Position numbers and translations under genes: made by a program
NCBI GenBank assembly: GCA_950295325.1
Contig: OX485806.1
Span: 10,166,001-10,230,000, forward strand
Direction: 5' to 3'
DNA: 64,000 bases
Source: Polytrichum commune
Lineage: Eukaryota > Streptophyta > Polytrichopsida > Polytrichales > Polytrichaceae
The notes under the pieces: model-generated
The model's input: only the letters and a program-made list of their open reading frames with translations
Told to the model about the DNA's origin: nothing
The model's database searches: none
Shown: positions 4,741-31,985 of the stretch, one piece after another
How the letters are laid out: each line of letters opens with the position of its first letter
How positions within the stretch are numbered: position 1 is the first letter of the stretch

Positions 4741-4765
4741 GAGAATCTGCAAGCAAATATAGTAT

Positions 4766-6929: not shown

Positions 6930-8461
6930 ACGTGAATGACGAAAATCGTGCGGTCGCCTTTGTGAGTGAATGGAATCGCTATCATCCGATTGCGATTCCA
7001 ACTGCTGCTCCTCCCCTCTGCTAGCAGCCTCGTCTGTATCCTGCTCGCTAGGCGCTTCTTTGTCGTCGTCGTCATGTTCAGGCTCTTCGTAGTCGTCGCC
7101 CTCTAAGTCGTGTCTATCAATGTCCATGGCATCGATATCCACACCGGGTGAAGGATCTCGGGGGGCATCCTCCAACAAAGGTGTTGGGGTTGCATGTTGT
7201 TGACGATGAGGTTGCGAAGCTCTGCCGTGCGCAGCGTCATCCTTCTCTTCATCTTGGAAGTCTACTGCCCGAAGGGGTCGAATGTGTTCAATCTTATCGG
7301 GCAGTGTGTGCACAAAGCAAGAGTCCATATACGAAAACACATGTTGGTCGTTCATCTGCCCACATGAACAATATAGATGTTATGTAACTTGACCCATTTA
7401 AAACAAGAACTTAAACCCTCTAAAACTTAAAGTCCTCCCCACTTAAAAGCTTCCCTGCAGTGTACAAGGGAGGTTCCTGTCGGCCGAGAGGAACCTCCCT
7501 TGTATACTGCAGGGAAGCTTTTAAGTGGGGAGGGAGGCAGTGAGGGACTAGGTGTAGGGAGTTGCAGAGAACATACCAATGCGGCAGCAATTGGCTTCAA
7601 GCCGCCAAATAAGTTAATCACGACTCCTCCCGTGCTTCCAAGGAAGCTGAAAAACGACAGATAAACCTCCATTCGCAACTCCCCCCGGGTCACTTCGTAT
7701 GAAAGTTCGGACCACTCCTTGGGGTTCACATTGTAACGCCGAGCTTCAGGCGGCATCATTGGACATCGGAAGATTTTGTGGCCCGGGAGGATGCTTGGGC
7801 AAGTAAGGAAGTCCACGTAAATCATCGGTGACTCTCTTTTGCAGTCCACTTCCTTGTAGAATGGATAATTCTCGGCGTGACGAGGTAAATACACCGACGG
7901 GATATTCAGGAACGTCTGCGGATGCTTACAAATTATGGCTGAGATAAATTCCTCAGCTGCGTTGTGGTTTCGCAAGTCGGAGACAATCATCCAAGCTGGG
8001 ATGGTCTTGAGTCCGGAAGACCATATTGGATCCGTAAAATACTTCACCAAGGACTCCACGACTGAAGAGGACACTCTAGGAACCTCTTCGCCTGGCCTCA
8101 CTTCGAGTATTCGTTTTGCACACAAAAGATAGTCAGGCTTAGTCAAACCGGCCAAGACCCTGAAAGTTTCTCGAGTCAATGGTTTGCAGACATAAGGCTT
8201 CTCCTCGAATGTGGTTCCTGATTTCTTCTTCTCATGACGCGCTCGTTGTTTCTGTTGCGCTTCGAGGTATTCATCCAAATAGGTTGATCCTGGCTTGTCG
8301 GGATTCATCAGGGTCCCCTTCTCATGCGCAATGAAGATCTTCTTCCACAACCTGGCAGTCTCATCGTCGGCCATGATGATTGCGAGCTCAGCATTAAGGT
8401 CCGCGTGGGTGATACCTCTCGCAATGGCAGTGAACGAAGCCTCCATGCTTGTTGTGAAATT
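6930..8461 (-). CDS. Locus A exons 2 and 3: methyltransferase-like domain
   Basis: Exon 2 (8461-7577, 295 codons, no stops) begins after TTGCAG and ends at a GTATGT donor. It contains PMIYVDFLTCPSILPG at the place of motif IV (no DPPY) and, at its end, the block LRMEVYLSFFSFLG followed by VVINLFGGLKPIAAAL, like methyltransferase motif I. Exon 3 starts at 7355 (acceptor GGGCAG) and completes the fold with MNDQHVFSYMDSCF, matching MSGLSIYSYIEDGD in locus B and RHIAAFEPDEE in the 2-kb gene. Exon 3 then becomes very acidic (Asp/Glu runs, 7140-7000). Its 3' splice boundary could not be fixed. Loss of DPPY suggests a binding rather than catalytic role. Confidence 0.55.
7434..7533. repeat. 100-bp near-perfect palindrome in locus A intron 2
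   Basis: Arms of 50 bp centred at 7483/7484 match with only two mismatched pairs. The middle 24 bp (7472-7495) is a family-A palindrome, half-site GGTTCCTGTCG. It lies wholly within the intron between exon 2 (ends 7577) and exon 3 (starts 7355). Confidence 0.9.
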
Positions 8462-8593
8462 CTGCAATGTGGAAGTGTTAGAATACAAACATAAGGGAAA
8501 TAGACAGAAGAGATGGAGTGGGAAAGAAATCAACCATGACATCATACTAGCTAGTTATTTGGGTAGTCATGTCTTTTTAGATATGTATCCCTC

Positions 8594-8806
8594 CCATGAA
8601 GTGCTCAAGGGAGGTTCCTCTCAGCCGAGAGGAACCTCCCTTGAGCACTTCATGGAAGGGATCCCTTAAGCACTTCATGGGATCCCTCCATTGAGAAATA
8701 CATGGGAGGTTCTTCGCGGCCGCGAGGAACCTCCCATGATCACTGCAAGGGAGGCTCCCTTGAGAAATATATGGGAGGTTCCTCTCGGCTGAGAAGAACC
8801 TCCCAT
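8594..8806. repeat. Three family-A palindromes in locus A intron 1
   Basis: 24-bp cores at 8613-8636, 8708-8731 and 8777-8800 sit inside longer palindromes: 62 bp at 8594-8655, 38 bp at 8701-8738 and 36 bp at 8771-8806. Half-sites are variants of GGTTCCTCTCG and GGTTCTTCGCG. All lie within intron 1 (8462-8879). Confidence 0.9.
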
Positions 8807-8879
8807 AAGCACTACATGGGAGTGAGGGAGTTTGAAGGGAGGGAGTGAGGAAGTGCATTGTATGAATATTCATACTTAC

Positions 8880-10310
8880 TTTCCATGCCTCCATCATTTT
8901 GGGGTCGAGCGTTGCCTCAACTTTGTTAACCCTTTGCTTCTGGGGCCTGCCTAGTTTCACCCACACTCTACGACAATACATAATCTGGGTTGTCCAAGTA
9001 GGGGTGAACTTGTTAAATGAATTGGAGTTATTTAGGGTATAAGATAGGCGGACTGTCATATTTGGATCCTTGCTCCAGACAATTGTACAAGGTCACGTCT
9101 TCAATTTATCTTTCAATGTTTGTTCTGTATCTTTGTGCCCTATAATTTTCCTTGATGCAGCCACGCTGTGTTGACCGTTGATAATGAGAAAATTTCCATT
9201 CTTGATGTCGTCCCAAATCATCCATTCTTTCCATCTTTCACCCTTATTGAGCTTCGGCATTAGGCAAAGATTGTGATGAGGCCATGCCGGTGGAGTCTGT
9301 ATAAGGTAGTTCTTCATGAGTGCTACCCCGGCTTCATCCAGTGGGCGAGTAACTTGGTAAGATTTAGCTTGCATCATTTTCTTGATGTGGACATGGAAAA
9401 CTTTCTCCACACCGAAAGGGTAAAGGTGTCCAAATAATTGGACAAACTTTTTCCGGTCCGCTGTAGCTTCCTCCAAACTTGGTTCCTCTCCATGCACGAT
9501 AACTCTCCCCTTCTCTGCTGCAGTGAGCACTAGGGGAGTTTCATCTGTGTCATCTGTCGCCTTCATCATCTTGGTCTTGGTCTTCCTGGGTTCATCAGTT
9601 GTCATCTTCGTGGCCGGGAGTTTCCTTGGGCCCGTTGTCTCCTCGGGATTGTTGTCAAGAATTGGCGTTGGGTTGAGGGTCATGGCCAACGGACCAATGT
9701 CACCTGAAACATTCTTAGACTTCTTAGAAGTCTTTCGTGTTCCTCCAACAGCTTCCTCTCCGGGTCTCTGTTTCTTTTGTGTCTTCTTATTTCCTCCATC
9801 ATCATTCTTAGAAGCGAGAAGAGTCTCCGCTTGTTTCTTCTTTTGCTTCTTTAGCAACTCCTTCTCGGACGCCTCTCTTGCATTGATATCACCTATTGCT
9901 TCAAGTATAAAATTTATGGCCTTCTTGAAAATGCCAAAACCCATCACTCTCTCCATATCTTCTTTGTCCGCAATAGGGAGTGTTGAGATTGATTGCGTGA
10001 ACGGCTCCATATGGAATTTGTGTCTCTTGCAATCGATGGACAAAATTCGTGTTTCAAGTCCTTCGAAGACCGACACGTTTAGTTTGTCGCTATCACCAAT
10101 AGCAACCGAGGTAATTGCATTTTCCGGGTTTGGAATCTAGCTTTTGTCCACCCGGTACGCGAATGTTAATTTTAGAGGCAATTCATTGTCTTTTCTATGT
10201 ACTTGCAGTGACCAGTGTCGCAAGTAGGTGTCCCTTAATTCCCAGTGGATACCCTTCGGCCCCACTTGGATATCCCCAACAAGATCGGTCCATAAAACTT
10301 CTTTCTCCAT
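8880..10310 (-). CDS. Locus A exon 1: ParB/DGQHR-like domain
   Basis: I start at the Met at 10310 (MEKEVLWTDL), just 3' of a TTGCAG-like acceptor, as in locus B. The exon codes 477 codons including two in-frame stops. After a Lys-rich linker (about 9520-9860) comes a domain ending in a signature strand, GNFLIINGQHSVAASRKI (about 9145-9200). This resembles the ParB/sulfiredoxin and DGQHR folds, where the Gly-Gln-His-x turn binds nucleotide. Then, past a TGA at 9093-9095, comes a conserved block with TIVWSKD and, nearer the exon end, CRRVWVKLGRP. Locus B keeps the same order: WLIDGQHSVEASKKI, TGA, LVVWSDD, SREVWEFYGRP. Domain naming rests on motif resemblance only. A long plus-strand frame over this exon (9523-10140) is a shadow. 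Confidence 0.6.
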
Positions 10311-11475
10311 GTCACCTGCACGGATCATTAAACTGGTTAGTGTGTGTGGATTGCATGAAAAAAAAAGTGTGAAGTCTCAATAGTGTGAAGAGAGTGTGAA
10401 AGAGAGTCTCAAGAGTGGAGTGTGATAGTGTTTCTACATTGCGAAGGGGAGGAGGATCCTCTCGCCCGCGAGGAACCACCTCCCCCGCTCACAGTGAGCC
10501 CTTGTGAGGTTATCAACCTCACAGAGCCAGGGCTCAGTGATGAGGGGGGGAGGAGGTTCCTCGCGGGCGAGAAGAACCTCCTCCCCCCCTCATGAGTGAG
10601 CCCTTGTGAGCCAGGACTCAGTGATGAGCGGGGGAGGAGGTTCCTCTCGCCCGCGAGGAACCTCCTCCCCCCCTCATGAGTGACCCCTTGTGAGCGGTGA
10701 CCCCTTGCTAAGGTATGGTGGTAGCAACATTAGATATAATCAAACACTTAATATCTTATTTAGTGTAGTGTTTAGCGTTAGACCTCGGATGAAAGTGAAA
10801 TAGATGATGGACATACCTATGGATGTATATCCTTTAAGGAACACTAACCAAATTTTGGATGAATAAAATCGGATGAGATTGCAGGGGATGCAACGGAGTC
10901 TCATGGCGCATCTAGGCATATGGTTAAATAAACCGCATGTCCTCCACAAGCACATCTATATAGTACAAGATGTGGTTAATTCTAAAATTAAATATGACAT
11001 CAAAAAATTAGAAATTAGAAACCTACATCACTAAAAATAAAAAACCCAAACATTCGGCGATAGGGGACGAAGCATAACCGCCTCATTAGAGATACTGTAG
11101 ATGCTAGGTCCTATATAAAGGAGGCACTGAGAGGCCCTAAGGGAGCTCATTCACATGGACTATCTCACGTGAGCGCTGCGAAGACTATCGGGAGCGCAAG
11201 GCTTGACCTAAAGAACTTAGGCACGGTCAAGTTGAAGACCCTTGAGAGCCAGGGCTCAGTGATGAGCGGGGGAGGAGGTTCCTCTCGCCCGTGAGGAACC
11301 TCCTCCCCCCCTAATGAGTGACCCCCTTGTGAGCCCTTGTGAGTGAGCCCTCGCCTGGGAGGAGGTTCCTCTCGACCAAGAGGAACCTCCTCCCCCAAAG
11401 CTACTTGTGTACGGATGGGAATTCCGTACAATTCGGACCACTCATTACATTCATCCATTGATTTGATGTGATTCT
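10311..11475. promoter_or_regulatory. 5' flank of locus A
   Basis: No coding sequence is supported here. It holds the five palindromes above, between which are AT-rich stretches (10690-11130). A TATA-like TCCTATATAAAGG lies at 11109-11121, but on the plus strand, so it does not point at locus A. Assigning regulatory function is inference from position. Confidence 0.3.
10454..11387. repeat. Five family-A palindromes upstream of locus A
   Basis: 24-bp sites at 10454-10477, 10555-10578, 10639-10662, 11277-11300 and 11364-11387 have 11-bp arms of type GGTTCCTCTCG and 2-bp cores CC, GG, CC, CC and AC. They are embedded in C-rich flanks (GGGGGAGGA..TCCTCCCCC) that extend the symmetry. Short phrases such as GTGAGCCCTTGTGAG and GGCTCAGTGATGAG recur between them. 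This is the region expected to hold the locus A promoter. Confidence 0.9.
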
Positions 11476-11639
11476 ATGTTTATGTTAATGTTTTACATTG
11501 GATTTAACAAGGGCATGAACATAAGTATAAGCATGAGCATAAACATAACACATTCAAACACTCAGAGAGCACACAAGCTCTTATACAGATTGAATACAAC
11601 CCCTAGGTACTCAAACACAACCAAAAAGCACATTCAAAC

Positions 11640-12045
11640 CCTGCCTACATTCAACCAGATTGAACACAAACACACATTCAAACACATTCAAACAAACTAA
11701 ACCAGGTTCTATGAGTTTCAACACAAACACACACATTCAACACAAACACACACATTCAACACAAACACACACATTCAACACAAGTAGAATCAATGTAGGA
11801 TTCACCACAAGCACATTCAAACACATTCATACTGAAGATAAACCTAACACATTCAAACACATTGATACACATTCAACACAAACACACATTCAACACAAGC
11901 AGAATCAATGTAGGATTCACCACAAGCACATTCAAACACATTCAAACACATTCATACTGAAGATAAACCTAACACATTCAAACACATTGATACACATTCA
12001 ACACAAACACATTCATACTGAAGATAAACCTAACACATTGAGTTG
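11640..12045. repeat. CA-rich minisatellite with a 115-bp higher-order repeat
   Basis: Built from ACATTCAACACAAACACAC-type units. AGAATCAATGTAGGATTCAC recurs at 11786 and 11901 (115 bp apart). CATACTGAAGATAAACCTAA recurs near 11827, 11952 and 12012. The open frame through it is a product of the repeat. Confidence 0.85.
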
Positions 12046-12049
12046 AGAG

Positions 12050-14900
12050 TTACCACAAGTTGCTGGAAGGAGGGTTGAGGATTGTGGGAGACTTGGCTAT
12101 GGAACTCAGCACCCCAACCTAGAGAGAAAAGGCGAACAATCTGGAGTAGAGAAAAATCGAACTGGAGTGCGACCAGGAGTGCGACCAGGTGTAGAGAAAA
12201 GTCGAACAATCTTGTTTAGGATGTACAATTCAATCTCAGAATCTGAGAGCGTGGAAGGTGTCAGTGGAAGTTGGAAGGAAGAGAGGAGAGGAAGAGGAAG
12301 AGAGGAGGTGCCGACACAAATGAGGAGTCGCCCGACATTCGAATGGACGCCACCCGGGCGGGTGCGGCTGGCCGGAATCGACGGTTCAGATTAAGCCGTC
12401 ATCATGGATGGCCGGGATTAACTCACCTTCCCATGATGACAAGTGTACCGACTAGTAACAACTGCCTATGGGACATGTGTTGATTGAGTACCTTTTCCCC
12501 GGTTGCTCTTTCAACTAATTTTATTTTGGCCGTTGGATGCGTGCGTAAACCCTATGGCTCCATCTGCGACATCTGATGTCAAGATGGGAATGAGATTACA
12601 ACCTTTCTTTTTCGATGCAATAATGAGAAACAATTGTCATAATTGAATCCATATCTTATATGTCAAATTACAAAGTTACGTCATGGATCATATACATATT
12701 GGAATTATTTTATAAGCAACTAATTAAATACTAACACACACACACACACGCATTAAGTACTACATATATGTGGATTTGTTAACATTTTCATGTAAGTTTT
12801 GACTTAATTATATGAAAAGATTGGATTGAAAACTCAAAAGATAACACTCACCATGAGAAAACGATTCGTATTAGTATAAATCAACGGTATTGTCAAGTTG
12901 ATTATCAAAACTTGTCTCAAAAGGTGTGTTAACATGTGCACAAAATATATACAATTTTGATAGAAGAATTCAACCTGTTGTTGATCATCATGCACATTTG
13001 GAAGTTTGTTGAGAAGGGTTGATACCAATAGCGGAACTGATGTGGTGGTCATATATGGGTCCATACCAATATCGGAAGTGTTGTGGTTGTCATATATGAG
13101 TGTACAAAACACATCACTATTCACTCCAATAGTGATCATGATTCACAAAATCTAATCTACGCACTCTCATGTATATGTCATATTATGCGACGCGACTCAC
13201 ACAACCAATGATTAATTCAATCTTTGTCCTCGTTGAACCCTAACAATAAGTACTAATAATAATCACTAATAACGTTTAAATTTTATTATATCAGTATAAA
13301 GATATAACACCGTGTAAATCCCAATAGTAAGTCACACAAATATCATATTTGGTCTAGTTGTTAAATGTTGCTGAAACCGAGATGTTTCTCATATGATCAT
13401 CAAGTGTGTGGGGAGTTTCTTACATAGATTTGATTAATAGGTGTGAATACCATATGATAGTAGATCGTTCATTTCAAGCGAGGCATACCAAATATTCAAT
13501 CACAAACATATACGAGTTAATGAAGCATTGTACTAATTTGTATTGTTAACTAATGCTTTTTTTATGATGCATCATGCAACATCAAGTGTCTTAATATGCC
13601 ACTTGTCTTTATTTTCTTATATCATTATTGATTCCTTAAAAACTAGGACATAAAGTTCAATGATTGTAATTCTTAAACGTTCCCTATTGGCAAAATATTT
13701 AATACCTACATATGATATAGAGCATGGTAGAAGATACGTGTATTTTGTATTTAAAAGACACTCATACAACAACAATGCTCCTCAAAAATGATTTATTCAT
13801 TTATTTTCTTTGTTGAGGTGCGATTACATAGTGACACGAAAGAAGAGTCACCCATTTTGGCCGTTGGATGCGTGCTTCATAGCAAACTTAGGATGGTTAG
13901 CATATTTTGAGCACATAATCCTCATCTTTGCTAACATGTGTCTTCGTGCCGCCAATTCCAGGTCTCGACCTAACTACACACTACTCAAATATATAGGTGT
14001 CCAAATTATTGTTGTGGTTGATTTAGGCACATCTACCTTATATCAAGCTGGATAATATTGTATGAATAGTCAAGTAACGGCCGAATGTCATGTGCGTCAA
14101 AGGTGGTGAGAGTCAGTGGCAACAAATATGGTTGTCCTAATAAGGATCAATTTCGTTTGGTAGTAAATACATTCTATCCTTCCATGCGATAAACATCAAC
14201 TCGGGCCTAATTCGGTTAATTTTTTTCATTAGACACCTACCATAGAGGCCGTTCTATTTCATCAAGTAATGCCATAATGTACATAAATTAAAATAAATGT
14301 TACTTTACATAAAAAGAAGCACAAAATACAAATAATTAACCACATTAAGATTTGAGCAATACAATGAATGTGGCTTGCATTGATTTTCTATTGAAAAATA
14401 ACTTCAAACAAATAGTAATGTAAATCATTATCATAGTAGTGGTAATGTTTCTTGCACACACTTGTATGTCAATCACCTAATATACTAATTCATTTTGCTT
14501 CTAGTAATGGACCCCAAAAGTAGGGCGTGAATTTTTACTACCCAAGATGTGTTATTACACAATATTTCCAAGTGTTTCTTGACAACATCAATAAAATGGG
14601 GTCTCATGGTCACAACTAGTATTATCTTATAATACCCATTGTTGTTCATAAAAACAATTGAAGATGGGGAAAGATGTTATTTCATCACCCCTGGGCCAAT
14701 AACTAACACATGACCCATTTCCATGTATTAAACATGTACTCAATACTGAAATTGTGGTTAGCAACACTCAAGGTTGATTATGTTTTTAAGATGCATCCAT
14801 GGCATTGTGGACCCATAACATTAGTGGAATCCGAGCCAATGATTTGTTGGACCGACAGTGAATTTAGAAAGTGGGTGCGAACCTTTCATGATGGTGGGAG
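12050..14900. other. AT-rich DNA without a supportable gene
   Basis: Contains a short CA microsatellite near 12730-12750 and a GC-richer patch at 12240-12420 with AG-rich low complexity. The sequence GGCCGTTGGATGCGTGC occurs at both about 12528 and 13859, marking a shared dispersed repeat. Small open frames have no recognisable motif. Confidence 0.4.
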
Positions 14901-14985
14901 TGGCCGGTCTGATTTTTGGGCATAATCGGTCAACATCCCAATGTTTCCAAGTCCAGCCGGTTCCATAATGTGATTGTTTGGTTTT

Positions 14986-15012
14986 AGGGTTTAGGGTTTA
15001 GGGTTTAGGGTT
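14986..15012. repeat. Interstitial TTTAGGG telomere-type repeat
   Basis: About four direct units of TTTAGGG, the plant-type telomere repeat. Similar short runs occur at 32651-32678 and 33421-33438. All lie in noncoding DNA. Confidence 0.9.
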
Positions 15013-16950
15013 TGGCAAATACATGAATTTTAATTTTTAAAATAATAACCATAAAAACACCACACAAATATATGACCCTATTACATTTAACCCTAAACCC
15101 TATTAGAATTAACATTATTTTACATTAATATTTGGCATCGCACGATGTACTGTGATTCCATTGGGCAATTCAAATGTATTACTTATGAGTTCATAATCAC
15201 TCATGTTGAAAAGGTTGTTTGGACGTTTAGGGCCTTCACTTATTTGTGTGAATAGGTGTGAAGCTAAGAAAAACCCACCCCCCCCCATAGGTAGAAAGAG
15301 AGTGTGTAGAAAAGATTGGACTTATATGTGCTCAAATATGGACATTAGGTAGGTTTAGTACTTAAGACATATGTAGAGACTTTGTAAGCGCTTTGGCTTT
15401 TCAATAATTAAAGGTTGACCAAGTAATCATTGTGAAAGATTGACATGCAAATAGATAAATAGCATCACCAACTTCTTATGCAAGCGAGCAAATGTAAATA
15501 GAGAGTCTCTTCACATGTAGGTGTTTACTACCTTTTGGTGGGGAACTTTGTGACCGTGGCTTTATGAATTGTTTTGTATCTTAGGTAGGGATTGATTAGA
15601 TGGGACATTTGGGGAGAGGTCTTGGTGAGAGGTTAAGTGTGTTAATGAGGAGTTGGGTTGGGTGTGACTTCAACTTAGTGTTCTTTGGGGGGGGGGGGGG
15701 CGTGTGGCTTTTTGTGAGATGAAGATCGAGGGTTCGAAACCTTAATAGACGATAATGAGAAACATGATGACAAGAAAACACTATCCTTTACCATAAATTG
15801 GGCGTTCTTTGGGGGTAGTTGAGTTTGGGTGACCAACCTACAAGGGATGCTCTCTCCATCAGTCAATTGTAATGCAGCTTTCAAAGATGTTTAGTTTCTT
15901 TTGCTAGGGGTTTGTTAAATGAAATCAACTCACTGCCAAGCTCTTGGGTGGGCAAATAGTGTGAATTGAGAGACAACCACGATTGCATGTATTGTTGTAA
16001 GACTTTGTAAGACTTTATCCTATGAATCATCATCCAAACACCGATTCAAAACCAAAACAACCTTAATTAATCATGTGAATGTCTTAGTGAAATTAATTTG
16101 TGACACCAAGATGATATCGGAATCACCTTTGAAGTCTTCCTTGAATATTTCATTGGCTTTATGTCTTATTTAAAATCCTAACTACACACCCAAATGTCAT
16201 GTATTACAATGTAGCATGCAAGAGGAAGATAATTGTGAGCAAGTATGGAATGTAGAATATATATTAAAAATGTTGAAACATTGGTGTTCATGCACTAAGG
16301 TTGATGAGGCTATTGTGGAAACCTCTAGCCTACTTAAAATTATCTAGGTGATGGATTCGAGCATTAGAAGCTTGAGCAGGATAACAATTGCGAATCATGA
16401 CCAAGCAATCTAAAGTTGTTGAAATTGGAGTTGAGGAAGGTGTTCGTCTAGGCTCTGGAATCAAAGATTCTCTACTTTCCAATTTGGTTTTAAAGCAAGC
16501 AACTCTTACATTGTTCAATGTTGTGTAAGTGGATGGCGACACTAGCAAATTCTACATGGGTCATTTGTCAATGAAAACGAAGTTTAATGCCAACATTTGT
16601 TGTGTCATGTTTTTTAATTAAAGTGGTCATGAATAAGATGAAATGTTGCCAAATTAGGTTATCATTATAAAATACCCACTATGCAAGTGGTTGGCACCTC
16701 ACAACCATATGCAACCTCTTAATTTGCCCACTTCACTTACAAAATCAAATGTGTCATAGGTTGGTGGATAACACTCCTAATTATGAAGGATGATAGGTGT
16801 AGTTTGTTTTTTGCAAAGGTGGCTAAATCAACATGTATTGCTCACCCACGGAATTAAAGCAACAATATTGCCAATTCCAAGCCAAATATAAGTGTCCAAT
16901 AGGAAGCTAACTTAAGTGGCCTCCTCTTACCTTAGCGTAAATATGAGCCC
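15013..16950. other. Noncoding stretch with G runs
   Basis: No gene seen. A run of G near 15687-15700 and a C run near 15279 are the only marked features; small frames are shadows or chance. Confidence 0.4.
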
Positions 16951-16954
16951 ATTC

Positions 16955-17330
16955 TCCTAACGTAGATAATGGGTGTCCATGATGTAAGGTGAGGTATCTA
17001 CCCGTTTTTTTTTTTGAAAGGTGGGCTCTATGTGGAAGTTTGAAGAGAGGGGTGGGGGCGTAGTTGAGGGTGTGTGGGTGGTATTGAGGTATTTTAACAG
17101 GGTTCTATGGTGGTTTGTCAATGGACTACTTTTAGTTTTATTTTGTATATGATTGAATAGGTGAGGTATTTTATGGCAAGTTGGTATAAGGATTTCATTA
17201 TTTTTTGGGTATGTTGAGGTTCTTGAGTTTTTCCATTGATGGCTCATGTATGGGGGCCTTTTACACCCACCGTGATGGTTAGTAGGGGACTCAGGTTGAT
17301 CACCTAGCACTTAGGACCCATGCGTTTAGA
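16955..17330 (-). mobile_element. LINE 3'-end fragment (decayed)
   Basis: On the minus strand, in two frames, the stretch encodes fragments such as IHEPSMEKLKNLNIP and AIKYLTY. They match the C-terminal part of the LINE at 62.3-64 kb (IHEHSINKLTNLKIP, AIKYLTYLVLNKRKL). Stops and frameshifts break it. Only the 3' end is present, the usual result of 5'-truncated target-primed insertion. Confidence 0.65.
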
Positions 17331-18771: not shown

Positions 18772-18805
<34 letters not shown>

Positions 18806-21650: not shown

Positions 21651-21660
21651 CCAGCGTGTA

Positions 21661-21680
21661 GTCCGTACAATTGTACGGAC
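21661..21680. repeat. Perfect 20-bp palindrome
   Basis: Half-site GTCCGTACAA followed by its exact complement. It lies 20 bp before the first family-A palindrome of the 21.7-kb cluster. Its half resembles CCGTACAATTCGGACC near 11423-11440, next to the locus A upstream cluster. Confidence 0.8.
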
Positions 21681-21699
21681 CACTGCGATAGGGTGCCGA

Positions 21700-21929
21700 G
21701 GTTCCTCTCGGCCGAGAGGATCCTCCGTTGCCAAGGGCCAGCCTTGGATATCCAAGGTTCCTCTCGGCCGAGAGGAACCTAGAGGCCAGATTCTGGATAT
21801 CCAAGGCTGGCCGAGGTTCCTCCTTGGAGCCTAGATATCCTCTAGGTTCCTCTTGGCCGAGAGGAACCTCGAGGCCAAATTCTGGATATCCAAGGCTGGC
21901 CTCCAGGTTCCTCTCGGCCGAGAGGAACC
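21700..21929. repeat. Cluster of four family-A palindromes
   Basis: Sites at 21700-21723, 21756-21779, 21845-21868 and 21906-21929 share arms GGTTCCTCTCG (one TTG variant) around core GC. Between them GGATATCCAAGGCTGGCC recurs, itself containing GGATATCC. An inverted, shortened copy of this cluster lies at 38.52-38.66 kb. Confidence 0.9.
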
Positions 21930-22080
21930 TAGAAACACTATATTCGTTAAATTGAGATTTTTTGGGCATTTTGAGACATTCACAGAAATAAGAACAAGGA
22001 TAAATGGAACACATATTGGAGAAAGTTGTAAGATGCGAACACTTTGAAGCGGGTGTTTAGAACAAGAACCCCATTAATAA

Positions 22081-22350
22081 CTCATATTTGGGATTGTTTA
22101 GGGCGGGCAATCCAAACCTTAGGCCAAGTTGAAGGGGAAATCTTAAAACATTCATATTATCGCACAAAAACTTGTATGAATATGGTTTAGGTAGGGCAAT
22201 CCAAACCATAGATCATATTGAAGGGGAAATATGTGAACCAATATAATATAACATACAAAATATTCCAAACTCATATTTGTGATGGTTTAGGTAGGGCAAT
22301 CCAAACCTTAGACCATATGGAAGGGGAAATCATGTGATACTTATATTATT
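22081..22350. repeat. Three-copy tandem repeat with decayed 22-bp palindromes
   Basis: GGGCAATCCAAACC recurs at 22105, 22194 and 22294 (spacings 89 and 100). Each unit holds a 22-mer beginning GTTTAG and ending CCAAAC (22096-22117, 22185-22206, 22285-22306). These have the length and outer bases of family-B palindromes but weakened inner arms. Confidence 0.75.
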
Positions 22351-22472
22351 GCAAAAAAAAACATACAAAGTGTGGCATGTAAAATGCATAGCATGCTAAC
22401 ACCACACATCCATTGGATAGTGCAACCCAAAATGTTCTTGCCTATGGCCCAAAACCCTACGCCTACTATGGC

Positions 22473-23251
22473 CTATCTAGCCTCGGAGACTACCTCTTTT
22501 TCTTTTGCTTTTTTTTCTTTTGCCTCTTTTTCTTTTGTTGCGGCTTCTTTTGCTCGCATTGCTTCAACATTCCTGAAAATCTCTGCCCCGCGACTATAGC
22601 CATTCTTGGGGTGACCGCCATCAATAACACATTTTGGATTCCGTCGGCCGCCCGAATTATACGACGAAGAATTCGAATACGATGAAGTGGACTGTCTTGC
22701 ATTTCTGGTCATGGAGTAGAAACGCTCCAACTCGACGGACGCACTAGCCCGCACAGGTCTACGGGTGGGAGCAACCTGCAACGCGTCAATGCAAGACCAC
22801 ATGTGTTAGTTTAGGGAGGAAGACCCAAACGTGTCACACGTTCATTTTTTTAGAGCAAAATGATTGTAATGCGCGGTTAACCATGTGTGGGGGGGTTCAC
22901 CTTGTCACCGGGGCCATTCGCGTCGGAGTTGGCGAGGAGGGGCAAGGCGTCCCGCAAAGGAATAGGAAGGGTTCCACTCTTCGTAGGCCGAGCGTCCATC
23001 CGCAGCCGCCGTTGAGGTGTAATACTGCCGCCGGGCTGAGAGGGGGACGTCCGGACGCATTTGCGATTTATGCCCTTGAGCGGCGACGGGGACGGAGAAT
23101 GCCGGAAGATTTGCTTGGGTGGGGGGCTATCGACAACGCCGGTGTCAAGAGGCTCCTTGGAGTAGTCGATGGTGGACGCGGCATCGTAGACGGTCTCGTA
23201 GAAGAAGCTCCCCAAGTTTGATTCGCTGATGATCTCAATCGAGGGCTCCAA
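22473..23251 (-). CDS. Locus B 3' exons: Ser/Pro-rich and Lys/Glu-rich tail
   Basis: Two probable exons: 23251-22905 (acceptor GCGCCAG; donor after GACAAG) and 22778-22473 (acceptor GTTGCAG; stop TAG). The first holds LGSFFYETVYDAAS and a Ser/Pro/Arg-rich part. The second holds NPKCVIDGGHPKNGYSRG followed by an alternating Lys/Glu/Ala helix (KEKEAKEKKAKEKEVV). It probably follows the HAD exon in the same transcript; the junction near 23374 is unresolved. No family recognised. Confidence 0.45.
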
Positions 23252-23373
23252 ACGCTGGCGCAAAAAAAGAAACAAAACAAAACCCAAGGGGAGGGGGGGA
23301 AGGGGGAGCATGTGAAAATCGATATACAATTGAGGCATAATATATCACACACAATGGCACACCATGTAGTATC

Positions 23374-24186
23374 TCAAATGAGTTTATTATATTTCGCGTG
23401 AGCGTACAACTCTCTGTACATATAGTCCTTCGGATCCATGTATCTTTCGCCTATCGGATTACAACTAAGGAACCGGGGCACGGGTAGTCCGCTCCCCACG
23501 AGCGTTTGAATGTACTTAAGTAGGTCTAACAAAAAGCGGTCTCGGACCTTCTCGACCGTCCACGTGGGGCAAACTATGAAGTTCGAGGTCGGGTTCAAAA
23601 TGTTTTTGGAAGCGTTGTCGTCCACCATCAACGTGTTGTCACGGGTGGGGCGAACGTCGTAGGGACAGCCGACCATGGTCGGACGCTAGTCCCATACGAC
23701 TGGCTTCAAGACCTTAAGAAATTGGTTTACGGCGGGGTTGTTGGGCTTCTTCACAACCCTGCCCTCGGGGGTGTATAATGTTTTACAAGAATCCTGTCCT
23801 AGGACCAAGCACGGGGGTTGGAGTCCCTTGAAGATGAACTCCACGACGGCCTGGGTATTCTCGGACTTCATGGAGCTCCAAATGATCACCCACCATTTGG
23901 ATAGGGCGACCTGTAGGAAGCGCCGAAGCCACGGGCGGAGGTACACTAGCTTGCTTTTGATGTACGCGGGGGGACCATCGTAGTTGGCGTCCTCGGGCTT
24001 GCAGAAAGGGACCGTTGGGACCCTCGGACAATGCACGCACTGGACAAGGACCCCGTTGAGGTCTAGCACCAGGAACCGGGTCTTGGGAGGCGAAGGTGGC
24101 GAGGGCAAAATCGAGGGGACCAGCACGCTGTCCTCCACACTCCTCGGGGAGGATCGGTGGGGAGCCGCGACACTATGCTCCGAACC
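23374..24186 (-). CDS. Locus B HAD-superfamily (FCP1/SCP-like) phosphatase domain with an in-frame TAG
   Basis: From an acceptor (CGCCGCAG before 24186) the frame encodes a HAD fold: motif I FLVLDLNGVLV (24075-24045), where classical FCP1 has DxDxT/V and here the second Asp is Asn; motif II WWVIIWSSM; and motif III-like TLMVDDNASKNILNP (about 23585-23640). A TAG at 23686-23688 splits the domain between VVWD and RPTMVGCP in the same frame. Plant HAD proteins with DLNG at motif I are known and are probably not ordinary FCP1 enzymes. The frame ends in TGA at 23374-23376. It may be the C-terminal part of locus B or a separate gene. Confidence 0.65.
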
Positions 24187-24396
24187 CTGCGGCGACGAGC
24201 GAGAGAAGGCGGCGAGGACTATGTTATGCTATGTCCATCTCAAGCAGAACGGAAATTTTGTGCAAACACAAGAAGAATTGGACCATTGGTGGCAACAAAA
24301 ACATACAAGGGGAACAACATACATTGGGACACAGATGCAAACATATGGGCGCCAAAAATAATAATTTTATTTTTACAAATCTCTATGTACAATTTG

Positions 24397-24580
24397 ATGG
24401 GGGGGGGGGGGGGGGACCGCGGTGAACGAGGGCATTCACACTATCCTAATTCTACATCCACAAAATTGGTTGCGCGCCGCCAAGGTCGAGCGTAGTCGAA
24501 TGCAGATGAGACGAAGGGGATCGCGGGGGGGGCACGTTGGGGGGAGGGGGAGCAAGTGTAGAGCAGGGGGGGGGGCAGGG
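24397..24580. repeat. G-run-rich low-complexity stretch
   Basis: An uninterrupted G run of about 18 near 24399-24416, followed by several G7-G9 runs to 24575. It lies in the presumed intron between locus B exon 3 and the HAD exon. Assembly or sequencing errors are likely here. Confidence 0.8.
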
Positions 24581-24641
24581 GGTGTGCATTTCCTCCTAGC
24601 AAGGGGGACACGACCACGCCAACAAGACAGTGACCCAGGAA

Positions 24642-25054
24642 GTTTGGGTCGGTCGACCCAAACTGGGAGAGCTCAGTGTATTACCTCGCCCTGGTCATGT
24701 CTCGACGATGTGGAAGCCTCCACCGTCCCCGCTGCCCCGCCTCTCTCGCCACCGCCTTCTCCGACGACGTCAGGAACCTTCTCCTGCAAACGATCGGCAT
24801 CAGGCCCTTGTCCTAAACCAATCTCTGCATGTGCATCATGCATGGGTTCATCGATTCGGTTAGGAGTAGAGGTATCACCAGGCCCTTGCATGCCTTCAAC
24901 ATCTAACATGGCCGTGTCTAGTTGACACCCATGTTGGTCAAGGGAGGACTGCGCTGCAACGGGGTTTGGGTCGCCCGACCCAAACTGTCCTGCATCTGGA
25001 GAGGGCCCTTCGGACACTACAGTGGATGGTGGGTTTGGGTCGGTCGACCCAAAC
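24642..25054. repeat. Three family-B palindromes in and after locus B exon 3
   Basis: 22-bp sites at 24642-24663 (core GT), 24964-24985 (core CC) and 25033-25054 (core GT), each with exact arms GTTTGGGTCG and CGACCCAAAC. The last two are inside the coding frame, where they read as VWVGRPK and VWVDRPK. The first lies just past the possible donor at 24685. Confidence 0.9.
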
Positions 25055-26170
25055 ATCCTGGGGTCGTCCGATTGGTGGGGGGGGCGCCATGACTATGGGG
25101 GGCCGAAGTGGTGGAGGGCCCAAAGGGGAGGAGGCTCCAGAGACGCGCCAGATGTTGGGGTCATCCACTTGCTGGACCGGCGCGTACAGAACTTGGTGGG
25201 GCCGAATCAAGTGCTGGAAGCTGAAAGACGATTGTGGCAAAGGCTGCTGAGGGATGCTCTGCGCAGGGAAGCCGGGGGGCAAGTGCGGGAAGGAGCTGGA
25301 GGGAGCCACCACCAAACCTTGCGCCCACATTCCTTGTATCACTTGTGATATCAAGTCGGCGTGGGACGGAGGTTGGGCCATCGCCCTTTGACGTTCCTAC
25401 TCCAACAGGAGAGCCCTCAGCTCTGCGACCTCGTTCCGCATTGAGGGTTCTTCCGCGGCAGCCTTCTGCAGGCGGACTCGCTGCTCCTCGTCCCTCCTCA
25501 TCTTCTCGTTCGCCTCCTCCACAGTCAGGACCTCGGGCTTCACCCTAACCATGCCAGCGAACGCTGTCGGGGACGGGGGATCTGATCTTAGCCGTTTGGC
25601 GAGCTCAATGTCATCGTCGTCCTCGCTGCTTATGGCAATGGTCTCCTCCACGGAGTAGTTGCCATATAGCTTCTTCCCCTTTAACTTCCTCCTCTCCCTG
25701 AATGTGGCGGTGGCGTCCCTGGAGTACATGTTCCGTGCATCGTCCACCGTCAGGACGGGCACGAGCTTACTCTGCGGGGTTGCCGCCCGCATCGCCTTCT
25801 TCTGTTGAGAGGCTTCGGATTCTTGCGTGAAGCCCGTTGCCCCTTCTTCCACGTCGCCTTCCTTCTCCGCCTCCTCGTGCTCCTCTTCTTCCTCCTCCTC
25901 CTCGACCTCGCCACCTTCTGTGCGGGATGGATTGCCCGGATGCAACCCGACCAGAGGTTCGGGTACTTGGGTTGTGGCCCTCATGGCCATTTCTTCCGGG
26001 TTGATCCGCCTCGCCCTATCAAGAGGGTTTTCGCCCCCCTGAACAACCTCGTCGACGTAGCTACCCGGGATCCAATCGAGGATGTCCATCTTCTTCGCCA
26101 GCGATCTCTGCGTCCTGTAAAATGGCAGATCGCCATCCTCTATGTAGGAGTATATACTCAGCCCCGACAT
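24685..26170 (-). CDS. Locus B exon 3: end of methyltransferase-like fold and acidic/coiled-coil tail
   Basis: Begins after a GTGTAG acceptor with MSGLSIYSYIEDGD, completing the fold begun in exon 2. A Glu-rich run (about 25870-25910), a segment with SSEDDDDIELAKRL and a heptad-like stretch (EVAELRALLLE) follow. A TAG at 25397-25399 sits where Gln would extend the coil (LLLE-stop-ERQRAMAQ), consistent with CAG-to-TAG. The Pro-rich tail is interrupted by two 22-bp palindromes (25033-25054, 24964-24985) that change the reading frame. A GTAATA donor is possible after 24685. Confidence 0.5.
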
Positions 26171-26239
26171 CTACACAATCCAAGTTATATAGACATTAGA
26201 ATTATGCGAGGGACATAAACAAGACCAAAAACAATACTA

Positions 26240-26297
26240 GTTTGGGTCGATCGACCCAAACCAACAAAGACCCTAGTTTGGGTCGATCGACCCAAAC
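26240..26297. repeat. Two family-B palindromes in locus B intron 2
   Basis: Perfect 22-bp palindromes (arms GTTTGGGTCG, core AT) at 26240-26261 and 26276-26297, 36 bp apart, between exon 3 (starts 26170) and exon 2 (ends 26326). Confidence 0.95.
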
Positions 26298-26325
26298 TGC
26301 GCACGAGCTATAGAAAATCACTTAC

Positions 26326-27657
26326 CATGGCAGCATAGATAGGTTTCGAGCCTTCGAAGACGTTGAAGATGCAGTCCCCTCTCCTCGTCAGCGTCCTCAT
26401 CATTCTGACGTAAAATTCCATACGCAGCTCATCTGCGGGATAGTTCACGTATTTAGCCTCGTCGTAGAGGCACTTGTTGGCACCCAACCCTTCTGGAACT
26501 TGGAAGAGTTTGTCCATCCGGGATATAGGGTGGTTCGGCAGCTTCAGCAACTCCGCTTTGTACACGAAGTACAAACACAAGACGTTGACGAACTTGGTCT
26601 TCTTGTCCCTTAACGTCGTGTAAGCCCCCTCCGCCGGTGCGGCGATGTAGTGAGACTTGGAGACTGCATACTGCGGCTGCAGTTTCCGGACAAGCTCGTA
26701 CACCTGCTCCGCCCTCCTATCCTCGACTATCCAAAGCCATATATCTACCTCCCTGAACTTAGGGCTTGCATAATCGACGAACTTAGACAGGAAGGGGTCG
26801 TAGAAGAGGGTGCTCATCGTGCCCTCAAATGAGCTTCCAGGAATATTTCTGAAATCAATCATCCCAAAAGGAAAGCGGTCCCTTGTTTTCGTCCTTATCG
26901 CCATTCTGGCGTCTTGACCTGGCCAACCCTGTATTTTCAAAGGGTCGACGGTGACAAGGTTGAAGTACGCTTCCCCTTCAAACTGGACAATCTTCTTCTC
27001 CTTGATGAAGTTCGAGAACGCACGCGCTGTGTGATCCGGAAGCGCCCGGTTATTCCCACCCTTCACCATCTTGGCCCGCAAGAAGTCGTCCCCCGCTTCC
27101 CTTATTAGAGCCGCCATGGAGGCACTGGTGAACTTATATTCAGCTTTGAATGATCTCCAGTTAGCCTCATGAACCTCGCCGTCCACGACAATATTCCTCT
27201 CTGGCACCAATTTATGCAGCTCCTGCACGATAGTCGTCTTCTTTTTCCTGTTGTCCGTCCATTCCTTCATGGTGTAGCATGAAGGAACGAAGGATTTTGG
27301 TTTTTGGAAGACAATCTTCGGGTGCACCCAGCACCTCTTCGCCGTGGGTGCCACGTGCAGGATGTGCGATGCCGCTTTTTCCACCTCCATCTCTGACAGC
27401 CCTTGAAGAGTTCTAAAAAACTCTCTCACGAAAGGCTTCATCTGCTTGAAGCGCGAGGTTTGGCTGAAATAAATGCCAGTGTCGGGATCGATCAAATCCC
27501 CCGTCTCGTGCTTTTCAAACACGGTTTTCCACTTCCTCCAAACTGAGTCCGATGCTGTAATCAAGTAAATCTCCCCCTTGAGGTCGCTGTATTTCTTCTG
27601 CTTGTGGCTCGAATTATCAATGGAGGAGAATTTGTTGATCATTTGGTATTTGAAATC
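26326..27657 (-). CDS. Locus B exon 2: methyltransferase-like domain
   Basis: 444 codons, no stop, phase 0 at both ends (acceptor GTCCAG, donor GTAAGT after GCCATG). The motif-IV-like segment is GMIDFRNIPG (no DPPY). Later strands include VDIWLWIVED. The end has the family block LRMEFYVRMMRTLTRRG then CIFNVFEGSKPIYAAM, in the place of motif I. Same order as locus A exon 2 and the 2-kb gene, but about 150 residues longer. As in the others the catalytic Asp-Pro-Pro-Tyr is missing, so a non-catalytic or altered role is inferred. Confidence 0.6.
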
Positions 27658-27747
27658 CTGGACGTGAACAAAACATAACATTTGAATGCGTGTTAGATAT
27701 GTACATGTGATTTTCAAACCATATCATGACCAACATCTGCAACAAGA

Positions 27748-27957
27748 GTTTGGGTCGATCGACCCAAACTAAAAAACACAAGACTACAACAATTGTTTGG
27801 GTCGATCGACCCAAACTACAAAACACAAGACTGCAACAATTGTTTGGGTCGATCGACCCAAACTAAAAAAACACAAGACTGCAACAATTGTTTGGGTCGA
27901 GCGACCCAAACTAGATAAACAAGGCTGCACCAGGTGTTTGGGTCGGTCGACCCAAAC
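27748..27957. repeat. Five family-B palindromes in locus B intron 1
   Basis: Sites at 27748-27769, 27795-27816, 27842-27863, 27890-27911 and 27936-27957, spaced 46-48 bp. Cores are AT, AT, AT, AG and GT. The phrase AACACAAGACTGCAACAATT recurs between them, so the array is tandem. All lie inside intron 1 (27658-27966). Confidence 0.95.
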
Positions 27958-27966
27958 AATACTCAC

Positions 27967-29292
27967 CTCCCACTTGGGATTCTTGTCCTTCGCATTCTCC
28001 CTCTCCTTGGGAGGCCTACCATAGAACTCCCACACCTCCCGCGAGGCCATGATATTCCTTATCCAGGACGCTTGGTAGGCCCTCTTCTTGTTTCCGATAT
28101 TGAAGTACCGGGAGATGTCGCTGAGCTTGGTCTCGTCGTCAGACCACACCACCAATGCCTTTCAAACCTTCAGCTTCTCCTTCTGATTGTTCGGATCATC
28201 CCACTCATTCATGAGTTGGATTTTCTTGGATGCCTCCACGCTGTGCTGGCCGTCTATGAGCCAAAAATCGCCCTTCTGAATTGTTGGCCACATTTCAGGT
28301 GTAGGCATTTTCTTGAGACCCTGTGGCATCACTACAATCGTTTGCCTGTCGTCTTTAAACTGCTCGCAAACGATCTGCGTGATTATCCAGTCAACGTAGG
28401 CGTCCTCCTTTGCCCGGACACACTTCTCCGGTAGCGCTAGATGGCACTGGCTGATGTTCACGTCGAACTTGAAATCCCTACCCATGAAAAAACAGTGGGA
28501 GCATTTCATCGTGAAATTGTTCACGATTTTCTGCAGCTCCCCTGCATCCACCTCTTCGCCGGGCTTCGGCATGCGCAATTCCGGTGATACTGGCTCGTCA
28601 GTCATCACAGAGGACTCTCTCGCCCGCTTGGATGGAGTTGTTTGACGGCTCCCAGAAGGTGTAGGCGTCTCGCTATCCGTCGGTGTTTGTGAGGGAGTGG
28701 TCCTCCGCGAGTCAGCCGGTACTGGTCGCGGCTTCCTCACCGATTGAGGTCTTGACGACCCTGCACCTTCCTCTGTTGTAGCTTTCCGCCTCACGGGTTG
28801 CTGAGACTTGGTTTTGCTCTGCAGGGCTTTGTTGAGCACGCTAATTGCATGCTTTAGTTTCGTGAATCGGCTCAACACCTTTGTGTTCGATGTACTGTTA
28901 TCAATGAATAGGGACTCCGGTTTGATGACGTCTGGTTCTACACATGTTTCTTTTGCATAGATAGCGTCAAAGGGTTCGGAGAACTGGTGCATAAACATAT
29001 GCGCGTTCTGGACAACGTTGTTCTCGAGGATGACATCCACGTAGTCTCCAAGAAACTGAACCGATGCCACCTCCCACCCCGTAAGAGTAGCCCATGTGTG
29101 CTTCTCCACGGTCCCAACCTTCACAACAAAAATCATTTTGTATTGCGAACCCTTAACCACTTGGATAGACCACGCGAGGACAAGCCCGTCCTTAGGAACG
29201 TAGGAGTCATCTTCCGGTGTTTCGTGCTCTTGCCATATCATGTATGGCGCAAGCATGAACCACCTTTCGCCTGGTCGTTTCTTTGGGGCCAT
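27967..29292 (-). CDS. Locus B exon 1: ParB/DGQHR-like domain
   Basis: Starts at the Met at 29292 (MAPKKRPGERW), right after an AG, as in locus A. It codes 442 codons. An N-terminal domain (to about 28860) is followed by a Ser/Thr/Pro/Arg-rich linker (28840-28600). Then comes a domain with Cys-x-x-Cys (CSHC near 28500) and the signature GDFWLIDGQHSVEASKKI (about 28230-28280), like ParB/sulfiredoxin and DGQHR folds. An in-frame TGA at 28162-28164 follows EKLKV; beyond it the conserved block LVVWSDD..SREVWEFYGRP continues to a GTGAGT donor at 27967. The expected function is nucleotide-dependent DNA binding or DNA modification. This rests on motif similarity. Confidence 0.6.
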
Positions 29293-29318
29293 CTGCAAGG
29301 AATGAAGCCCCAATGTTA

Positions 29319-29817
29319 GTTTCGATCGGTCGACCCAAACTTCTTCAAACTGAATAGAAGTCACGTGATGTAATTGAAATGTAATAGATTGCCGCATGTA
29401 TTTTGTTGGTTTGTGTATTGTTATATGTGAACATCATTTAATGGTGATATTATATTTTTATTTTTGGGTGGACTTGCATTTTATATTGTATCTAACATCA
29501 TAGATTGTTTGATGGGTTTATAATTAGAAGACTGTGTTTGGGTCGAGCGACCCAAACATTAGCCCTTGTTTGCGTCCAGCGACCCAAGAATGAGAGGACC
29601 CTAGTTTGTATTGTTATATGTGAACATCATTTGTATGCTGACATCGGATTATTTAGTTTTGGGTGGATTTGTATTTTATATTGTATCTAACATCATGGAT
29701 TTCTTTATGAGTTTAGGGTTTAGAAGACTGTGTTTGGGTCGAGCGACCCAAACATTAGCCTTTGTTTGGGTCGATCGACCCAAACAACAGTCCTTGTTTG
29801 GGTCGTCTCCCCAAAGT
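29319..29817. repeat. Family-B palindromes upstream of locus B, within a 195-bp duplication
   Basis: Perfect sites at 29536-29557 (AG), 29732-29753 (AG) and 29764-29785 (AT). Degenerate ones lie at 29319-29340, 29568-29589 and 29796-29817. The segment 29413-29557 is repeated at 29607-29753 (shared TTGTTATATGTGAACATCAT and ATTTTATATTGTATCTAACA). This is the 5' flank of locus B. Confidence 0.9.
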
Positions 29818-29959
29818 GTTTTTTATTAATATATTTTAAAAGTTTGCACGTAGCATAAACAATGCTTATGCGCTGTGTATGCTACAACACTAAAAGACCA
29901 GAAATATAACACAATACCTTTGAAATTTGCACTGCAAACACTTTGGAGTAGATGATGTC

Positions 29960-30310
29960 TCTTTCCAATAACCTTCAATAACAACTCTGGAATCTTTGAA
30001 ACAACTATTCAATCTCAAACAACTCTGGAATCCCTCAAACAACTCTTCAATCTCTCAAACAAATACTGGATCTCTCAAAAGACTTCTGAATCTCTCAAAC
30101 GACTTCTAAATGTCTCAAGCAACTCCTGAATCTGTCACAAAATTACAGAATCGTTCAAACGACTTTGAAATCTTTTGCACTACACAAGAACTCCTGATAC
30201 TCACAAGCACAATCTCAACCTCCTACACGATGTTCTCCTAACTTCTTGCCGCACTCTTCAACACTCTGCAACACTCTTGAACACTCTTGAACAACACTCT
30301 TCAAAACTCC
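29960..30310. repeat. Degenerate tandem repeat of about 20 bp
   Basis: Repeating variants of TCTCAAACAACTCTGGAATC and AACACTCTTGAACACTCTT. Frames through it are low-complexity. No gene. Confidence 0.7.
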
Positions 30311-30394
30311 TCTACTAAGTTCTTTTACCCTCACGCACTAAACCTTTCCTCCGCAAGTTTCTGTGCATTTCAATACTCTTCCTAAAACCTAAGA

Positions 30395-30700: not shown

Positions 30701-30747
30701 CTAAAGCCTAACTCTAAACCCTTAGCGGGTATTACTTATTTCAATGA

Positions 30748-31975: not shown

Positions 31976-31985
31976 CTCTGGAGTA

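Follow-up and report, generated by a model that had tools for sequence, protein, structure and literature searches.

Our results indicate that two nested DNA transposons of Polytrichum commune, here called A and B, each carry, beside a presumed transposase, a divergently oriented gene for a protein with ParB-like and methyltransferase-like domains, and that each is marked by arrays of a palindrome specific to its own family. Both elements lie in the window analysed here, a stretch of 64,000 nucleotides (contig OX485806.1, positions 10,166,001 to 10,230,000; C4:10166001-10230000 in our numbering), which was compared with the 408 Mb of the genome (64 contigs, seven of them of 42-78 Mb). The plastid contig has rbcL, tRNA-Arg(CCG) and accD in this order, the accD frame being assigned by eye, and this arrangement is one found in bryophytes. 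Across six related families (A, A', A'', A''', D and B) the palindromes vary together with the protein, and both protein and site are constrained. The protein is probably a family-specific DNA-recognition factor encoded by the element, which would bind these sites and exert an anti-silencing or activating effect, in the manner of the VANC proteins of VANDAL transposons in Arabidopsis.

A scan of the window with the B-type motif GTTTGGGTCGNNCGACCCAAAC (up to 2 mismatches) returned 25 matches, against 0.00 expected from 100 shuffles, and one with the A-type motif GGTTCCTCTCGNNCGAGAGGAACC (up to 3 mismatches) returned 15, against 0.00 expected. Exact palindromes with arms of at least 10 letters have 20 centres in the window (9 of them in one AT run), as compared with 0 or 1 per simulation (n=10). 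The palindromes are 22-24 letters long. In B, they lie upstream of the ParB-like gene (29319, 29536, 29732 and 29764, together spanning 29319-29785), in its intron 1 (five, at 27748, 27795, 27842, 27890 and 27936) and in its intron 2 (two, at 26240 and 26276). In A, they lie upstream of the gene (10454, 10555, 10639, 11277 and 11364; 10454-11387), in intron 1 (three, at 8613, 8708 and 8777) and in intron 2, where the core at 7472-7495 is part of a 100-bp near-perfect inverted repeat (7434-7533). The original prediction had placed palindromes at exactly these three positions in both genes. Beyond its list, B has an array of ten palindromes directly upstream of the transposase (34179-34753, spacing 56-64 bp), two in exon 3 (24964 and 25033), one downstream of exon 3 (24642-24663) and a degenerate relative at 31384. 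The A cluster upstream of the A transposase is split by B into a left half (21700-21929) and a right half (38627 and 39124; 38627-39147). Degenerate B relatives, with 2 or 4 mismatches, were seen at 22096, 22185, 22285, 22809 and 31384, the first three lying no more than about 375 bp from the left end of B.

The form of the sites is shared among families, and their sequence is not. A motif-free scan of the stretches L007-L026 (arms of at least 11) found 150 palindromes, 144 of which have a CG-NN-CG centre, while two others are one-base decays of that centre. The half-sites are GTTCCTCTCG in A, CTTCCTCTCG in A', CTTCCACTCG in A'', CTTTCACTCG in A''', TTTACGAACG in D and GTTTGGGTCG in B, so that each family has a half-site of its own, as had been noticed earlier for A and B. 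In all families the sites occur upstream of the gene and within its first two introns. A second group, upstream of the transposase, was found in B (ten), D (ten, L070), A''' (four, L073), A (six) and A' (two, L072); no site was found 3' of the gene in L067 and L071. Over 338 sites from five families (132+60+66+55+25), most arm positions mismatch in no more than 12%; three positions of A (17-30%) and the outermost two T of D (15-18%) exceed this. The spacer is variable in B, D, A and A', and in A''' it is AT in 25/25 sites.

Family specificity was assessed by scanning 37 stretches with all six motifs, allowing 2 mismatches; the stretches L027-L066 (flanks of B) and L074-L078 were left out of this matrix. 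Motifs of B, of D and of the A clade stay within their own stretches. The one exception is a B site in L021, a stretch of family D in which a 97% copy of the NIF segment of B (described below) is also present. Inside the A clade the motifs do cross-match, because the half-sites there differ by about one step. Genome-wide, with at most 1 mismatch, there are 8877 B places and 92 A places. The B palindromes are not scattered irrespective of the elements: among those listed on C1 between 0.6 and 26.6 Mb, 63 of 65 distinct places, and 12 of 14 clusters, have a listed B terminus no more than 20 kb away, whereas sequence so close to a terminus makes up 3.6% of that region. Similarly, 46 of the 50 distinct A places listed are found within 35 kb of an A exon-1 match.

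Palindrome type follows the paralogue, as can be seen both from the family matrix and from the correlation of half-site distance with protein distance over the six families, represented by 11 loci (Mantel r 0.936, 4/720 permutations). This test did not include L007, L010, L011, L014, L018, L019, L021, L023, L024, L026, c3, a3 and the two window copies. Sites at separate places of one element have a core identity of 0.85-0.98, and their 40-base flanks have an identity of 0.25-0.32 in 6/7 cases, against 0.298 for random sequence; sites beyond the named places were left out of this comparison (3/37 in the B copy c7, 5/30 in window B and 2/15 in window A). Given that sites never expected by chance recur in unrelated surroundings, the core must have changed in concert. 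Moreover, half-sites are identical between copies whose exon 1 has reached a synonymous divergence (dS) of 0.70 (c7/L025), 0.74 (L013/L015) or 1.085 (L020/L022).

The ParB-like gene lies on the minus strand in both elements. In B, exon 1 (27967-29292) encodes an N-terminal part, a linker and the ParB-fold domain with a DGQHS motif, and is followed by intron 1 (27658-27966), by exon 2 (26326-27657), with a helical and a methyltransferase-like domain carrying IDFRNIPG at the place of DPPY, by intron 2 (26171-26325, its acceptor read by eye) and by exon 3 (24938-26170), which is acidic and of low complexity and has an open counterpart at L001 4796-6235. In A, exon 1 (8880-10310) carries NGQHS and is separated by intron 1 (8462-8879) from an exon 2 (7577-8461) of 295 codons, as against 463 in A'. 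The two genes share the positions of their first two exons and introns, and the introns of both window copies have GT donors and AG acceptors, in agreement with the earlier view of the genes as paralogues with identical intron positions; among related copies, the intron-1 donor is changed in three and the acceptor in one. Both window copies are decayed, A by two in-frame stops in exon 1 and an internal deletion in exon 2, and B by one in-frame stop each in exon 1 and exon 3. The idea that a conserved stop after the GQHS region might be a recoding signal was rejected, since related copies carry W there. Exon-1 identity to A is about 74% in A', about 61-64% in A'', about 55% in A''' and about 29% in D. 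Fourteen exon comparisons were made for the ratio of nonsynonymous to synonymous divergence (dN/dS); dS was saturated in 4, and 9 of the 10 computable ones gave 0.06-0.27, the tenth being L016/L017 (dS 0.017) with 0.7. The ParB-like protein is thus under purifying selection in relatives of the window copies. The view of A and B as two single-copy paralogues was discarded, as the genes belong to multi-copy families; the proposal that protein and site evolve together was supported, with the transposon family and not the locus as its unit.

Structural comparison agrees with the earlier assignment of a ParB-like and a methyltransferase-like domain, although the AlphaFold2 models are of low confidence (mean predicted local distance difference test score 40.8 for exon 1 and 58.3 for exon 2). 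For residues 273-408 of exon 1, the five best fold matches in this low-confidence model are ParB and Noc (ParB 7bnk, Z 6.9, root-mean-square deviation (rmsd) 2.7 over 93 aligned residues; Noc, Z 6.7), and KorB (Z 5.3) and human Srx (Z 4.5) come lower. For residues 237-444 of exon 2, the best match, again in a low-confidence model, is MTA1 (Z 7.7, rmsd 4.4, 135 aligned), followed by M.BceJIV (Z 7.2) and MboIIA (Z 7.0), and 48 of the 50 matches shown are DNA or RNA methyltransferases of the N6, N4 or C5 type. We rely on these matches in spite of their low Z because the order of motifs in the sequence fits, with GQH in exon 1 and then the IDFRxIPG strand and NVFGGSKP in exon 2. [DN]GQH[ST] is present in 11/11 exon-1 sequences, and GERR, the nucleotide motif of ParB, in 0/11. 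Neither DPPY ([DNS]PP[YFW]) nor FxGxG was found in any of ten exon-2 sequences (0/10), and DFRxIPG occupies the presumed place of motif IV in 10/10. Since the catalytic motifs are gone and the relatives are nevertheless constrained, catalysis was probably lost while the domain was kept by selection. The methyltransferase-like part of the earlier assignment has to be corrected in that the motifs are lost.

These families are large DNA transposons with termini of the form AACA..ATATT, a presumed DUF7869 transposase and a 4-bp target-site duplication (TSD; measured in B). Their second, divergent gene encodes a protein predicted to have a ParB-fold domain, a helical domain and a methyltransferase-like domain without the catalytic motifs. 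We propose that this protein binds the palindrome of its own family as a dimer, on two half-sites of 10-12 bp with a 2-bp spacer and a CG-NN-CG centre. The arrays would place it where the two element genes are regulated, in front of each gene and within introns 1 and 2 of its own, and there binding may mark members of the same family only, so that those regions stay expressed and unsilenced. Expression control is favoured over a role at the ends because in window B no clear site reaches the termini and two short derivatives of B are without sites. An anti-silencing or activating effect is favoured because the layout of VANC21 is the closest parallel. The suggestion of a cognate relation between protein and site is supported in that neither of the two outcomes named earlier as refuting it was observed, the palindromes being concentrated at the elements and their type following the paralogue, with the ParB-like protein being the predicted binder among the products of the element. 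A wider version, that this is a self/non-self recognition system in which a protein with a ParB-fold and a dead adenine-methyltransferase domain reads the family palindrome and unsilences its own family, as a second and independently arisen VANC-like system whose protein and site diverge stepwise as new families arise, is plausible, although we would put it at somewhat below an even chance.

Several observations weigh against this proposal. All the genes of an element are linked, so covariation cannot tell which of their proteins binds. The Mantel correlation is weak within the A clade alone (r 0.645, 2/24), and in the half-sites compared 2 of 10 positions cannot differ, the CG-NN-CG centre being fixed by definition. 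The high core identity is partly built in, as the sites were picked by motif similarity, and in A' the flanks are alike too (0.478). Some B sites lie in exon 3, and the A' sites near the transposase (L072) are variants, TTTCCTCTCG. In L018 none of the six motifs is matched when 2 mismatches are allowed, and the strict scan shows a single variant site there, GTTCCACTCG. As regards the domains, besides the poor confidence of the models, all the fold matches have Z below 8, a level that warns of a possibly common arrangement only, and most of the 50 exon-1 matches fall on residues 27-105, with ribosomal and polymerase domains at Z 4-5.6. Profile searches of exon 1 and exon 2 against PDB, Pfam and PHROGs gave nothing convincing; unrelated families reached E 0.002-0.007, in single members or on intron read-through, and hints in the expected direction were limited to GmrSD_N (0.064) and a ParB-like partition protein (0.13), in one member each.

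The main rival is that the ParB-like protein is an autorepressor, which shuts its own gene and the transposase and so controls copy number, like KorB of plasmids. Sites in the 5' flank of either gene, together with those in the first introns, would suit such a role, and KorB, a repressor with a ParB-fold, is itself among the fold matches (Z 5.3). The very high copy number of B, with 397 and 409 termini in the two orientations, however, fits strong repression in trans poorly, and arrays in introns would be unusual operators; we consider this explanation unlikely. A function in transposition, in which mobility would depend in cis on recognition of the palindromes as end sites, has its model in TnpA of En/Spm, and the presence of a second element-encoded protein with repeated sites is in line with it, as is the position, not far from the left terminus, of the three relatives with 4 mismatches (22096, 22185 and 22285). 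The clear sites of window B, in contrast, begin 2.7 kb from the left end and cease 3.8 kb before the right end. Two internal-deletion derivatives of B, L080 (C1:11508343-11511988, 3.6 kb) and L081 (C1:42393137-42397956, 4.8 kb), have intact termini and 4-bp TSDs, and a scan of both at up to 3 mismatches found no B palindrome, although the sites may have been deleted after insertion. This makes a transposition cofactor quite improbable.

That the protein is an active N6A/N4C methyltransferase marking its own element has been proposed in print for the protein of Ectocarpus Sola1-1_Ec32, according to the passages on this element in PMC12477816, and the predominance of methyltransferases (48/50) among the exon-2 fold matches would agree with it. 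The absence of [DNS]PP[YFW] and FxGxG from all ten exon-2 sequences, with DFRxIPG at the presumed motif IV throughout, leaves such self-modification very improbable here. The correlation might also arise in the absence of a cognate protein, from shared ancestry of linked DNA or from the spread of a palindromic repeat, given that sites and gene are inherited together, that some correlation is then automatic and that the arrays are tandem repeats. Nevertheless, the same core stands amid unrelated flanks within one element, the conservation of the sites exceeds that of synonymous sites, and the same change is found at separate places, so that this explanation, already disfavoured, seems highly improbable. 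Hardly more can be said for RNA hairpins or DNA cruciforms as the functional form, which we also regard as highly improbable. The sites are indeed near-perfect inverted repeats, some with 50-bp arms, but an RNA loop would be unable to close over a 2-bp spacer, and some A'' sites (L013) pair two different half-sites, which argues that the symmetry is not kept by pairing. We therefore continue to favour a family-specific recognition factor that would keep the genes of its own element expressed.

Element B is a complete DNA transposon of 16.6 kb (21934-38551) inserted in element A. Its termini are perfect terminal inverted repeats (AACACTATATTCGTTAAATTGAGA in inverted order), flanked by the TSD TAGA at 21930-21933 and 38552-38555, and a 4-bp TSD was found in 20/20 other B copies, taken from the plus and minus termini listed on C1. 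With at most 1 mismatch, the B terminus occurs 397 times in forward and 409 times in reverse orientation in the genome. The exon-2 protein of B gave 1228 first-look candidates, 95 of which were scored, and apart from the window copy these 94 show 90-97% identity. As 95 of 1228, 117 of 845 and 150 of 917 candidates were scored, the copy numbers have to be read as minimum values. The B transposase, so presumed from its DUF7869 domain (Pfam E 1.4e-42; tblastn), is located at 34927-38018 on the plus strand, opposite to the ParB-like gene, and is decayed by a frame change. On the minus strand, 3' of the ParB-like gene, a NIF/FCP1-like (HAD) phosphatase segment with one in-frame stop was found at 23377-24228 (PF03031, E 8.6e-8 and 1.2e-4). 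A similar segment lies 3' of the gene in A (L067 1739-2230; 31% identity, E 7e-15), and this phosphatase is possibly a third element gene common to A and B.

Outside the palindromes, mutations of window B relative to c7 and c3 are commonest in the CHG context (35/444), with 34/702 in CG and 98/2375 in CHH; the CHG excess would be compatible with methylation of the elements at CHG sites, of the kind known in plants. The lack of CG decay in the palindromes (0/15, versus 34/702 elsewhere) was considered as evidence of demethylation and not used, the sites being too few. The position of B within A suggested an insertion preference for palindromes, which was not supported, as 0/20 other copies have a palindrome (arms of at least 9) within 300 bp. 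Outside those 20, the copy c7 has another palindrome type 199 bp past its right end. In sequence flanking the right end of a B copy, L002 8783-8994 holds five palindromes with the core CCCACGGGTGTTCACCCGTGGG and no CG-NN-CG centre, possibly from a further element with its own palindrome type.

Element A, the older of the two, extends over 4947-46870, truncated on its left side and split by B, as judged from homology with other A copies. Those copies are uninterrupted across the insertion point of B and resume at window 38574, leading to the second DUF7869 open reading frame (ORF). This decayed A transposase (41087-43737, plus strand, with a short upstream piece at 39549-39682) was recognised by its DUF7869 domain match and by comparison of A copies; in A, the DUF7869 domain and the termini are seen in different copies. 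The right terminus of A is AACATGATATTAAACAT, ending at 46870, where the homology of three A copies (window, L076 and L077) stops, and its left terminus is AACACGATATTAAACAT, in L075. The A terminus resembles AACACTATATT, the terminus of B and D. The left terminus of A was looked for and not found in L074 and L083, nor was the left end of D found in L071 and L078. Another B copy, at C1:61425123, lies 1.8 kb from an A exon-1 match ending at 61423330 and has A palindromes on both sides.

Two further segments of window A, 39797-41064 and 44208-46545, are absent from other A copies. The latter (2.3 kb, absent from two other A copies) has TCAA flanks on both sides and a lone AACACTATATT on the minus strand (44486-44496), and it is possibly another small element; AACACTATATT at that position was rejected as the right terminus of A, being inside this segment. 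Window A breaks off at 4947, at the end of another high-copy repeat. This different repeat (1889-4946; 917 first-look candidates; a second copy in L082, 98.6% identical) has a methyltransferase-like ORF at 2063-2539, with a weak Pfam match to N6_N4_Mtase (E 0.0065, below the cut-off), and, in tandem repeats of 126 bp, the palindrome AGGCCTCGGATCCGAGGCCT at 4390 and 4642 with an altered copy at 4516.

Proteins with a ParB-fold domain and palindromic sites near their own gene are known from bacteria, where ParB binds parS, Noc binds NBS and KorB binds OB. The proteins described here differ from bacterial ParB in having GQHS/T at the place of GERR, in being encoded by a eukaryotic transposon and in having a methyltransferase-like domain encoded by the same gene. 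Both domain types are joined in one protein in phages, where the ParB-fold is fused to N6_N4 methyltransferases, and in archaea, where it is fused to MT-A70, according to the account of these fusions in PMC12704722; here, unlike there, the genes are eukaryotic, intron-bearing and multi-copy and the methyltransferase motifs are lost, and the main text of that paper contains 'transpos' and 'plant' 0 times. TET/JBP genes in fungal DNA transposons are also accessory genes, thought to counter DNA methylation (PMC12730594, in its part on these genes), a role comparable to the one proposed here; their product is a dioxygenase, the main text mentions 'ParB' 0 times, and no cognate sites are described in that part.

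Closest in domain content are the algal elements. The giant transposon Sola1-1_Ec32 of Ectocarpus encodes a protein with ParB-like and N4/N6 methyltransferase domains opposite its transposase, and green and red algal elements with ParB-methyltransferase proteins are cited as well, in the sections of PMC12477816 that deal with them. Large DNA transposons and a gene opposite the transposase are shared with the elements of Polytrichum, and the domain types predicted here are the same; what differs, set against that description, is the loss of the catalytic motifs and a transposase recognised by its DUF7869 domain. Family-specific palindrome arrays are found here, and 'palindrom' occurs 0 times in the main text of PMC12477816. 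Our literature searches, with most subscription papers outside their scope, found no other paper on this kind of protein and no description of cognate palindromes or of covariation of protein and site. The supposition that the whole system was undescribed has therefore to be narrowed: the kind of protein was already known, and the cognate palindromes and the dead methyltransferase look new. The ParB-methyltransferase genes of transposons, described in these accounts by their domain content, would gain a concrete target in the form of defined palindromes. With their graded half-sites, the six families also open protein-DNA coevolution, and the way in which new transposon families are founded, to direct tests.

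In layout, the nearest system is that of VANC; VANC is not known to be related to ParB or to methyltransferases, and the likeness is one of arrangement. VANA is the transposase gene of VANDAL. In the passages on VANC21 in PMC5735166, its sites lie in the introns of VANC and VANB and upstream of VANA, have spread by tandem repeats and change with the protein, and family-specific motifs co-changing with the protein are also reported in the corresponding part of PMC10398659. As in VANC, an element-encoded protein is accompanied here by family-specific motifs in the introns and upstream of the transposase, that is, in non-coding sequence of its own element, a few B sites lying also in exon 3. VANDAL, on the other hand, is a Mutator-like element (MULE), and its motifs are short and non-palindromic (YAGTATTAY) as given in PMC5735166. 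If the system of Polytrichum is indeed VANC-like, sequence-specific anti-silencing would have arisen more than once, and a eukaryotic mobile element would have turned a DNA-recognition module of bacterial type into an epigenetic tool.

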